Source: Burkholderiaceae bacterium (lineage in GTDB: Bacteria; Pseudomonadota; Gammaproteobacteria; Burkholderiales; Burkholderiaceae_D). Taken from it: a stretch of DNA of 64,000 nt. The DNA is taken from assembly GCA_030158675.1 (NCBI GenBank), contig JAOASL010000003.1:186001-250000 (forward strand), read 5' to 3'. This document shows positions 20,807-24,182 of this stretch, one piece after another. Both the position numbers and the translations under genes were made by a program. Numbering within the stretch: position 1 is the first letter of the stretch; every line of letters begins with the position of its first letter. The notes beneath the pieces were generated by a model. It saw only the letters and a list, made by a program, of their open reading frames with translations, did not search any database and was not told where the DNA came from.

Positions 20807-22267
20807 ATGAAGATCATTGAACCTAACCTGCACGCGCAAGCCACCGCAAGCAATATTTTGCTGACTCCCTACGGGCTGGACGAGGGCAAGTTGCTGTCCG
20901 TGCTGGGGACGATCTTCACGCATAAGGTTGACTACGCCGATTTGTACTTCCAGCACACCAAGAGCGAGAGCTGGAGCCTGGAAGAAGGCATCGTCAAGAC
21001 CGGCAGTTTCTCGATCGACCAGGGGGTCGGCGTACGTGCGGTCTCGGGCGACAAGACCGCATTCTCCTATTCCGACGATATCTCCGAACGGGCGCTGCTC
21101 GAGGCGGCTGCTGCGACGCGCACAATCGCCCGTCAGGGTGCCGGCCGCGTGAAGGTGGCGTCAGCGATCCGGCCGGGTTCGGCTCGCACCCTGTATTTGC
21201 AGCAAGACCCGGTGATGTCACTGGACGCGACCGCGAAGGTCAAGCTGCTGGAAAAGCTCGAGCGCATCGCGCGCGCAAAAGATCCGCGTGTCGTACAGGT
21301 GATGGCAGGACTGTCCGGCGAACACGATGTGGTGCTGGTCGTGCGCAGCGACGGCGTGATTGCCGCTGACATCCGCCCGCTGGTCCGGCTGTCGCTGACC
21401 GTGATCGCCGAGCAGGATGGCCGCCGCGAGATCGGCACGGCCGGCGGCGGTGGCCGCTACGACTTCAGCTATTTCAGCGACGAGTTGCTCGAGAAATATG
21501 CGAGCGAGGCAGTCAATTCCGCGCTGACCAACCTTGAGGCGCGTCCTGCGCCCGCCGGTCCCATGACGGTAGTACTCGGTCCGGGCTGGCCCGGCGTACT
21601 GCTGCACGAAGCGATTGGGCATGGGCTCGAAGGCGATTTCAACCGCAAGGGCTCCAGCGCCTTCTCCGGCCGCATTGGCGAACGCGTGGCCGCGAAGGGT
21701 GTCACCGTGGTGGATGACGGCACGCTGGCCGACCGGCGCGGCTCGCTGAACGTCGATGACGAAGGCCATCCGACCCAATGCACCACGCTGATCGAAGACG
21801 GTATCCTGCGCGGCTATATTCAGGACACGCTGAATGCGCGGCTGATGAAGATGCAGCCGACCGGCAATGGCCGGCGTGAATCGTACGCGCATCTGCCGAT
21901 GCCGCGCATGACCAATACCTACATGCTGGCCGGCGATCGCGATCCGGAAGAGATCATTGCGTCGGTAAAGCGGGGGCTGTATGCCGTGAATTTCGGCGGC
22001 GGTCAGGTGGATATCACCAACGGCAAGTTCGTGTTCTCGGCCAGCGAAGCCTGGATGGTCGAGGATGGCAAGCTGGCGTATCCGGTGAAGGGCGCGACTC
22101 TGGTCGGCAACGGTCCGGACGTGCTAAATCGCGTTTCCATGATCGGTCGCGACATGAAGCTCGATTCCGGCGTCGGTGTCTGCGGCAAGGACGGACAAAG
22201 CGTGCCAGTCGGCGTCGGTCAGCCGACCTTGCGGATCGAAGACCTGACCGTGGGCGGTACGGGCTGA
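20807..22267 (+). CDS. tldD: Metalloprotease TldD
   Basis: Catalytic subunit of the TldD/TldE (PmbA) heterodimer, which degrades unfolded peptides and in some species matures microcin-type peptides. The zinc motif HEAIGH is visible in LLHEAIGHGLEGD near residue 265. Length 486 is normal. The C-terminal part has the GVCGKDGQSVPVGVGQPTLR segment typical of TldD. The partner pmbA/tldE is not in the window. A possible -10 (TAGAAT at about 20770) lies in the 72-bp gap, so the gene may have its own promoter besides read-through. Confidence 0.95.
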   Translation: MKIIEPNLHAQATASNILLTPYGLDEGKLLSVLGTIFTHKVDYADLYFQHTKSESWSLEEGIVKTGSFSIDQGVGVRAVSGDKTAFSYSDDISERALLEAAAATRTIARQGAGRVKVASAIRPGSARTLYLQQDPVMSLDATAKVKLLEKLERIARAKDPRVVQVMAGLSGEHDVVLVVRSDGVIAADIRPLVRLSLTVIAEQDGRREIGTAGGGGRYDFSYFSDELLEKYASEAVNSALTNLEARPAPAGPMTVVLGPGWPGVLLHEAIGHGLEGDFNRKGSSAFSGRIGERVAAKGVTVVDDGTLADRRGSLNVDDEGHPTQCTTLIEDGILRGYIQDTLNARLMKMQPTGNGRRESYAHLPMPRMTNTYMLAGDRDPEEIIASVKRGLYAVNFGGGQVDITNGKFVFSASEAWMVEDGKLAYPVKGATLVGNGPDVLNRVSMIGRDMKLDSGVGVCGKDGQSVPVGVGQPTLRIEDLTVGGTG

Positions 22268-22349
22268 TTGCCATTCAGGCAGTCACTTGCCAAAGCCGCT
22301 GATTTATAGCACCATCGTCCTTCGTTTAAACCTGAAGTGATGGAAACCG

Positions 22350-22421
22350 ATGTCCGTTCTGCGTTTTCACTTTTATTTTTACTTTAGCTACCCCAGCCCC
22401 CGGGCGGTGGAGAAGCGGTAA
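22350..22421 (+). CDS. Phe/Tyr-rich leader peptide of aroG
   Basis: A 23-codon reading frame with ATG at 22350 and TAA at 22419. Residues 6-14 read FHFYFYFSY, giving four Phe and three Tyr codons in nine positions. A weak purine stretch (GGAAA) precedes the start by 4 bp. The frame ends 38 bp before an intrinsic terminator hairpin that itself stands 38 bp before aroG. This is the layout of leader peptides such as those of pheA or pheST, where ribosome stalling at scarce aminoacyl-tRNA decides between terminator and antiterminator. Phe and Tyr are end products of the pathway AroG begins. The role is inferred, the codon run is seen. Confidence 0.8.
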   Translation: MSVLRFHFYFYFSYPSPRAVEKR

Positions 22422-22458
22422 GTTCACGTAAAAGCAAAGAACCGAAACCGAATCTTAG

Positions 22459-22491
22459 AAACCGCCAGGAATGGCGGTTTTTTGTTTTTTG
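22459..22491 (+). terminator. Attenuator terminator upstream of aroG
   Basis: Stem AAACCGCC (22459-22466) with GGCGGTTT (22473-22480), a 6-nt loop, then a long T-rich run. It lies inside the aroG leader. The left arm ACCGCC (22461-22466) can instead pair with GGCGGT at 22403-22408 inside the leader-peptide gene, which would be the antiterminator. Confidence 0.8.
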
Positions 22492-22527
22492 CGCATTGAT
22501 TAGAACCGAATTATTCCTGGAGAAGCC

Positions 22528-23595
22528 ATGCCCCGCACCGATGACCTGAGGATTAGAGAATTGAAGGAACTGACGCCGCCGTCGCACCTGATCCGGGAAT
22601 TTCCCTGTACGGAAAAAATCGCGAACGTTACCGCGAATTCGCGTACCGCACTGCATCGCATCCTGCACGGCCAGGATGACCGTCTGATGGTCGTTATCGG
22701 GCCGTGCTCTATCCATGACACCAAGGCCGGTATGGAGTACGCGCGCCGTCTCGTCGAGCAGCGCGAGCGCTTCAAGGATGACCTCGAGATCGTCATGCGC
22801 GTGTATTTCGAGAAGCCGCGCACCACGGTCGGCTGGAAGGGCCTGATCAACGATCCTTACCTTGACGGCAGCTTTCGCATCAATGACGGTTTGCGCATCG
22901 CGCGCGAGCTGCTGATGCAAATCAACGAGCTGGGTCTGCCGGCCGGCACCGAATTCCTTGACGTGATCAGCCCGCAATACATCGCCGACCTGATTACCTG
23001 GGGCGCCATCGGCGCACGTACCACCGAATCGCAGGTGCACCGTGAACTGGCGTCGGGCCTTTCCTGCCCGGTCGGTTTCAAGAACGGCACCGACGGCAAC
23101 ATCAAGATTGCCGCTGACGCGATCAAGGCGGCATCACAGCCGCACCATTTCCTGTCGGTGACCAAAGGTGGCCATTCGGCGATCGTGTCGACCAGCGGCA
23201 ATGAGGACTGCCACATCATCCTGCGCGGTGGCAAGGCGCCGAACTACGACGCCGCCAGCGTTGAGGAAGCCTGCATCGCGCTGGGTGCGAATGGTCTGTC
23301 GCAGAAGTTGATGATCGATGCCTCGCATGCGAACAGCTCGAAAAAGCCGGAAAACCAGGTGCCGGTCTGCGCCGACATTGGCAAACAGATCGCGGCCGGT
23401 GACGACCGCATCATTGGCGTGATGGTCGAATCCCATCTCGTCGGCGGGCGCCAGGATCTGGTGCCGGGCCGGGAGCTGACCTATGGTCAGTCGGTCACGG
23501 ATGGCTGCATCGACTGGGACAGCAGCCTGCAGGTGCTGGAGAATCTTGCGACATCGGTGCGTCAGCGTCGCCTGCGCAGCGAGTCTGCAGAGTAA
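22528..23595 (+). CDS. aroG: 3-deoxy-7-phosphoheptulonate synthase (DAHP synthase, class I)
   Basis: First step of the shikimate pathway: condenses phosphoenolpyruvate and erythrose 4-phosphate. The 355-residue protein has the class I features GPCSIHD, the KPRTTVGWKGLINDP segment for PEP and E4P, and metal-binding residues in DASHANSSKKPENQ. Whether feedback is by Phe or Tyr cannot be told by eye. The leader at 22350-22491 contains a Phe/Tyr-rich peptide and a terminator, so the gene is probably controlled by attenuation in response to charged tRNA-Phe and tRNA-Tyr. Good Shine-Dalgarno (GGAG) before the ATG. A strong terminator follows. Confidence 0.96.
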   Translation: MPRTDDLRIRELKELTPPSHLIREFPCTEKIANVTANSRTALHRILHGQDDRLMVVIGPCSIHDTKAGMEYARRLVEQRERFKDDLEIVMRVYFEKPRTTVGWKGLINDPYLDGSFRINDGLRIARELLMQINELGLPAGTEFLDVISPQYIADLITWGAIGARTTESQVHRELASGLSCPVGFKNGTDGNIKIAADAIKAASQPHHFLSVTKGGHSAIVSTSGNEDCHIILRGGKAPNYDAASVEEACIALGANGLSQKLMIDASHANSSKKPENQVPVCADIGKQIAAGDDRIIGVMVESHLVGGRQDLVPGRELTYGQSVTDGCIDWDSSLQVLENLATSVRQRRLRSESAE

Positions 23596-23600
23596 ATGCA

Positions 23601-23632
23601 AAGGGCCGGTTCATCTGAACCGGCCCTTTTTA
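23601..23632. terminator. Intrinsic terminator after aroG
   Basis: Perfect 13-bp arms AAGGGCCGGTTCA (23601-23613) and TGAACCGGCCCTT (23616-23628), followed by a T-run. It stands between the convergent aroG and yajQ genes and serves aroG; AA pairs on the other side may also help yajQ. Confidence 0.9.
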
Positions 23633-23652: not shown

Positions 23653-23700
23653 CTGTCTGACGCGCCATGCGTTTAGCTGTCTGACGCGCCATGCGTTTAG
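23653..23700. repeat. 24-bp perfect tandem duplication at the end of yajQ
   Basis: The 24 bases from 23653 to 23676 are repeated exactly at 23677-23700. The unit contains CTGACGCGCCATGCGTTTAG. The right copy includes the yajQ stop codon, so the duplication arose at the 3' end of the gene and left a second stop-containing copy in the spacer. Confidence 0.95.
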
Positions 23701-24182
23701 TCGCGGAAGTTGTTGAATTCCAGCGGCATATCCGTCACTTCCTTTTTCAACAGTGCGATCGTCGACTGCAAGTCATCGCGCTTGGCGCCCTGGACACGCA
23801 GTGCATCGCCCTGAATGCTGGCCTGCACCTTGATCTTGCTGTCCTTGATGAGGCGCTGGATTTTCTTCGCTGCGTCGGACTCGATGCCGTTCTTCACCTT
23901 GATCACCTGCTTGACCTTGTCGCTGCCGATTTTCTCGATTTTTCCGAGATCGAGGAAGCGCACGTCGACGCTTCGCTTGGACATTTTGGTCGTCAGTACA
24001 TCGCGCACCTGGCTGAGCTGAAAGTCACTGTCTGCGTAGGCCGTCAGTTCACGTTCCTTCTGCTCGATGCGCGCATCGCTGCCCTTGAAATCGAAGCGGG
24101 TGGTGATCTCCTTGTTCGCCTGGTCGACCGCATTCTTCACCTCGACCTGATTGGCTTCGGAGACGACGTCGAATGATGGCAT
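23697..24182 (-). CDS. yajQ: YajQ family nucleotide/cyclic-di-GMP-binding protein
   Basis: A 161-residue two-domain protein of the YajQ family. A Xanthomonas homologue binds cyclic di-GMP and acts with a transcription factor; other members bind nucleotides or tRNA, so the role here is open. Conserved start MPSFDVVSE and internal [10 protein letters not shown] are visible. I chose the ATG at 24182: it has a perfect AGGAGGA Shine-Dalgarno and matches the family start, while the upstream frame to 24332 does not. A TATAAT -10 lies 34-39 bp upstream. The gene is divergent from murB. Confidence 0.95.

Follow-up and report, generated by a model that had tools for sequence, protein, structure and literature searches.

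The window, that is, the whole 64-kb stretch of DNA analysed (positions 186001-250000 of its contig, in a 3.0-Mb genome), carries tldD (20807-22267) followed by aroG, which encodes a type I-alpha DAHP synthase. The 260-nt gap between the two genes holds a 23-codon open reading frame (ORF) and an 11-bp intrinsic terminator (Table 1). The solved structures closest to the encoded enzyme are those of the Phe-sensitive AroG of E. coli, and its closest named relatives are found in Oxalobacteraceae/Burkholderiaceae metagenome assemblies, then in Massilia, Noviherbaspirillum, Herbaspirillum and others. A search of the genome for DAHP synthases of type I-alpha and type II (type I-beta lying outside its scope) returned neither a type I-alpha paralogue nor a type II enzyme, and aroG is the only DAHP synthase of these two types found. 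Due to a putative terminator-like stem on its 3' side, aroG looks monocistronic.

Table 1. Features at the aroG locus, in window coordinates.
Feature	Position	Strand	Remarks
Promoter-like motif	22287-22315	+	TTGCCA 22287-22292, 17-nt spacer, CACCAT 22310-22315; putative
Leader peptide ORF, MSVLRFHFYFYFSYPSPRAVEKR then stop	22350-22421	+	ATG...TAA, 23 codons; from the sequence and relatives
Putative regulatory codons	22365-22391	+	Phe 22365, 22371, 22377, 22383; Tyr 22374, 22380, 22389
Segment 1, CCCCAGCC	22391-22398	+	Predicted fold; putative protector pairing with segment 2 when ribosome-free
Segment 2, GGCGGT	22403-22408	+	Inside the ORF; putative antiterminator left arm
Segment 3, ACCGCC	22461-22466	+	Putative antiterminator right arm and terminator left arm
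Intrinsic terminator	22457-22489	+	Stem 22457-22467 / 22472-22482, loop GGAA, T-rich tail
Segment 4, GGCGGT	22473-22478	+	Within the terminator
Shine-Dalgarno-like GGAG of aroG	22519-22522	+	Read from the sequence
aroG, type I-alpha DAHP synthase	22528-23595	+	PF00793, E 4.7e-95; putative regulated gene
Terminator-like stem after aroG, AAAGGGCCGGTTCATCTGAACCGGCCCTTTTT	23600-23632	+	Read from the sequence; putative

Codons 6-14 of the leader ORF read TTT CAC TTT TAT TTT TAC TTT AGC TAC and thus comprise four Phe and three Tyr codons in nine, exactly as described in a first-pass annotation of this DNA, whose coordinates were read back from the sequence. A density of seven Phe/Tyr residues in nine is the single top score among 106,191 nine-residue windows taken from six-frame open stretches across the whole window. 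The start codon and the aromatic run are kept in relatives. Phe codons are predominantly TTT in the leaders (612 TTT and 201 TTC across about 190 loci), compared with 212 TTT and 965 TTC in the aroG genes of the same loci, a bias which perhaps reflects slow translation of the codon or a requirement for U-rich RNA free of structure. Another ORF overlaps the aromatic run in a different frame (ATG at 22340, Leu-rich, stop TAG at 22385-22387); it is probably accidental, since the conserved frame is the Phe/Tyr one.

The locus combines several features expected of a transcription attenuator. A short ORF rich in codons for products of the pathway lies 5' of a biosynthetic gene, and an intrinsic terminator lies between the two (folding z -3.9 relative to shuffles). 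Segment 2, within the ORF, is complementary to segment 3, the left arm of the terminator, and the putative antiterminator stretch at 22392-22470 has a folding z of -2.3. This mutually exclusive antiterminator, which a stalled ribosome would expose, is supported computationally by predicted folds and by covariation. The first-pass annotation had placed both arms correctly and had read the arrangement as an attenuator; leader ORF and antiterminator pairing are indeed conserved in about 190 loci, as an attenuator predicts.

For the comparison with relatives, aroG upstream regions were gathered at the genus, family, order and class level and subjected to a strict composite test, which combined an aromatic ORF, a GGCGG word at 8-30 nt beyond its final aromatic codon and a CCGCC...GGCGG hairpin with a T run. 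The test was passed by 102 of 106 Oxalobacteraceae loci and, in three other families, by 19 of 26, 23 of 26 and 24 of 28 loci. Overall, passing loci span 13 families of Burkholderiales, these four and nine more. Only one of 286 reverse complements and none of 11 second type I-alpha copies passed, and eighteen more sampled Burkholderiales families with an AroG relative yielded no match. Nearly all Oxalobacteraceae loci carry 4-9 Phe/Tyr codons per ten together with a terminator built on ACCGCC...GGCGGT. The peptides of other families differ (Ralstonia, MSFAKFFYFYFWHLAPLAEGEGRLQQK; others with ends such as PLAEEG, LAAG and GGRE), so that unrelated tails (AVE, PLAEG, LAAG, GGRE) occur across the loci, and the sequence upstream varies among relatives while the leader is kept. 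An alignment of this kind had been set beforehand as the check that might overturn the attenuator reading; it came out in the other direction, with the codon run conserved. This order-wide conservation was absent from the first-pass annotation, as were the promoter-like motif and the protector role of segment 2 described below.

Within its own genome, the leader model gives only one strong full-length match (E 4.8e-22). The sole other full-length match below E = 1 (E 0.0096) is a terminator following an Ala-rich, lipoprotein-like ORF and was rejected, and no such leader is present at the only other match to F[FY]F[FY]F in the DNA of the genome.

The conservation of segment 2 can be separated from that of the peptide. 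Of 190 loci, 186 have a GGCGG-type word 8-28 nt past the final aromatic codon, as opposed to 23.6 expected from dinucleotide shuffles, and all three frames relative to the ORF are used (153, 19 and 16 loci). The word thus persists while peptide tails, reading frames and the amino acids that it encodes differ, so that it is the RNA segment which is under selection. The five core pairs of segments 2 and 3 are almost invariant, so that covariation can be seen at a single flanking pair: the base before GGCGG and the base after CCGCC are, outside Oxalobacteraceae, T-A in 52 loci, C-G in 23 and other combinations in 8. A simple Fisher test gives p 2e-16, which is not taken here as a probability, since related sequences enter the count repeatedly. 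On the AroG tree, three branches change both flanking bases, all in a compensatory manner, where about 0.5 would be expected by chance given 14 and 7 changes over some 180 branches; support from the tree is modest, since independent changes are few. The first-pass annotation had suggested a search for covarying stems; covariation is seen in the flanking pair, the core being nearly invariant, and RNAalifold applied between segments 2 and 3 recovers only the core helix in most groups.

Folding was also predicted with a ribosome placed on the aromatic codons, assuming a footprint of +15 nt and only the RNA made before segment 4. Under this model, the median antiterminator probability is about 1.0 and exceeds 0.5 in 86-99% of loci. 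Its predicted median without a ribosome is 0.2, a low value explained by the frequent pairing of segment 2 with sequence upstream (median probability of this protector pairing 0.53, mostly 4-7 nt upstream). In the window, the predicted protector hairpin joins segment 1 to 22403-22410. The antiterminator probability of zero for a ribosome at the stop codon is built into the model. The complete terminator exceeds the antiterminator in stability by a median of 4.3 kcal/mol, and antitermination would therefore have to be a kinetic effect. In about 93% of loci, 13 nt or more separate the last aromatic codon from segment 2, so that a ribosome stalled on the aromatic codons would not cover this segment. 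The stop codon is 25-34 nt past segment 2 in a sizeable minority of loci, where a terminating ribosome would thus not sit directly on the segment.

On the computed evidence, namely the ORF, the terminator, GGCGG conservation, covariation and folds, it is very probable that aroG is governed by a ribosome-mediated transcription attenuator of the classical type; the model set out here adds a presumed promoter, translation, stalling, timing and choice of sensed amino acids. The leader RNA would begin near 22322, the start expected from the promoter-like motif, and a ribosome would translate the 23-codon peptide with RNA polymerase ahead of it. A shortage of charged tRNA-Phe, and perhaps of charged tRNA-Tyr, would stall the ribosome on the aromatic run, leaving GGCGGT free to pair with ACCGCC before segment 4 exists, so that no terminator forms and aroG is transcribed. 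When charging is sufficient, the ribosome would cover segment 2, segments 3 and 4 would form the terminator and transcription would end near 22485. Without translation, segment 1 would sequester segment 2 and termination would again be favoured. Since the same arrangement recurs in 13 families, Burkholderiales with this leader probably turn the pathway on when charged Phe or Tyr tRNA is short.

Leader-peptide attenuation is known from E. coli pheA/pheST and trp. The leaders of pheA (pheL) and pheST, represented by RF01859 (Phe_leader), likewise combine a Phe-rich peptide with a choice between antiterminator and terminator, and the full-length similarity of the present leader to this Rfam family is weak (25.9 bits, E 0.17, far below the gathering threshold of 55 bits). 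In contrast to these systems, aroG is the controlled gene here and Tyr codons, or in other families Trp codons, are mixed in. The trp attenuator (trpL) shares the four-segment logic of protector, antiterminator and terminator but differs in its codons and gene; in the aroG leader, segment 2 lies inside the ORF and would often be directly covered by the terminating ribosome. Neither in the leader nor in four relatives does any Rfam family attain its gathering score, and T-box and amino-acid riboswitch families have no match in the leader.

The first-pass annotation had contrasted this logic with the TyrR and TrpR repression of E. coli. TyrR and TrpR regulons for aromatic genes have been described in gammaproteobacterial lineages in a survey of Proteobacteria (PMC5343134); they share the target step and the physiological aim but consist of protein repressors acting at the DNA level. 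Control by a Phe/Tyr-codon leader is not wholly unprecedented for a DAHP synthase. The aroR leader of Corynebacterium glutamicum aroF carries Phe-Tyr-Phe codons and acts by ribosome-stalling attenuation, responding to Phe limitation, with Tyr availability described there as without effect (Neshat et al., 2014, as described in PMC11802643; PMC4046766). Judged from these descriptions, both have a Phe/Tyr-codon leader before a DAHP synthase; aroR differs in belonging to a distant phylum, with a single F-Y-F and an operon, whereas the present leader has 4-9 aromatic codons per ten, a different RNA and an apparently monocistronic aroG. The openly accessible literature that was searched holds no description of this leader for Burkholderiales, in line with the first-pass annotation. 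The class of mechanism is already known. The leader predicts how the first shikimate enzyme is controlled in 13 families, a large group that includes Oxalobacteraceae, Ralstonia and relatives, offers an evolutionary series in which peptide and reading frame change around a constant antiterminator word and provides a practical handle to deregulate aromatic production in betaproteobacterial hosts.

Which amino acids would be sensed is reflected in the codon content. Phe codons dominate the best ten codons of the leaders (mean 4.2-5.1 Phe versus 1.4-2.1 Tyr), at least one Tyr is found there in 181 of 188 leaders, and Trp occurs in the aromatic run of 19 of 25 leaders in one family and of 12 of 23 in a second; a joint Phe and Tyr signal, as read from these sequences, is therefore plausible. 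Its extension to an order-wide aromatic sensor, reporting the charging of tRNA-Phe and tRNA-Tyr and, where Trp codons lie in the run, tRNA-Trp as well, is put forward tentatively, at somewhat less than an even chance. If true, one RNA switch would fit shikimate flux to whichever aromatic amino acid runs out and take the place of the isozymes that E. coli controls by repressors. It is a serious possibility, if again short of even, that the attenuator is real and senses Phe alone, with Tyr (and Trp, His) codons as passive neighbours. Besides being the most numerous, Phe codons are the most fixed: Phe at 22383 (position -7) is kept in 86 of 86 distinct Oxalobacteraceae leaders, encoded by both TTT and TTC. 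The seven leaders free of Tyr in their best ten codons, the Phe-sensitive AroG as nearest solved relative of the enzyme and the C. glutamicum aroR precedent point the same way. On the other hand, Tyr is commonly present twice in the ten codons and is retained across families whose peptides otherwise differ.

Other explanations look beyond or away from the attenuator. In addition to attenuation, the approximately 160-nt terminated leader RNA or its peptide might act in trans, for which the Sinorhizobium trp leader peptide peTrpL is a described precedent (PMC7298713); by analogy this is conceivable but improbable, as peptide tails vary by family and the peptide body is kept mainly as aromatic codons. 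It is very unlikely that the ORF is incidental and that the terminator merely ends the transcript of tldD or exerts a constitutive damping on aroG. The site does lie between tldD and aroG, and intergenic terminators are common, but a promoter-like motif is kept in relatives between tldD and the terminator, and the leader stays while the upstream sequence changes; this explanation was rejected because aromatic ORF, GGCGG word and the spacing of the two are conserved jointly. Also very unlikely is a switch that works without a ribosome, by binding of an amino acid, tRNA or protein to the RNA (riboswitch, T-box or protein-dependent antitermination), for although such systems share the terminator/antiterminator architecture, the Rfam comparison gave no family at gathering score in the leader or the four relatives, the stretch separating segments 2 and 3 shows poor conservation and lacks an aptamer-like core, and outside the arms it is the encoding of aromatic residues that is conserved best.

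As to the promoter-like motif, TTGCCA followed by a -10-like hexamer (CACCAT, CACTAT or TATAGT) is seen in most Oxalobacteraceae loci compared, and the motif in the window is not among the promoters reported by a generic promoter scan. Within Oxalobacteraceae, conservation is striking for CTTGCCAA, which lies 17 nt 5' of the -10-like hexamer and may be a -35 box only or a protein site as well. At one locus (L012), TTTGGCAAGCTGACTTGCCAAACC forms an inverted repeat across the promoter-like motif, some 160-120 nt 5' of segment 2 of that locus; this repeat is not seen in most relatives.

The distribution of the leader has exceptions in both directions. Three loci (L189, L190 and L243) and the leaderless families have an aroG without leader or terminator, and small-genome lineages are among them. 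Outside Burkholderiales, the leader was found at one of 29 loci examined, and a model search of 274 genomes added a second genome from the same outside family. The same leader precedes aroG at L303, L340 and L341, in two genomes of this family (f60), which belongs to another order. Their AroG falls inside a Burkholderiales family (f4; support of the enclosing clade 0.95), a pattern that a joint horizontal transfer of the gene with its attenuator would explain. Downstream of aroG in the window, GCTGTCTGACGCGCCATGCGTTTA occurs twice at 23653-23712, a short tandem duplication between aroG and yajQ (DUF520).
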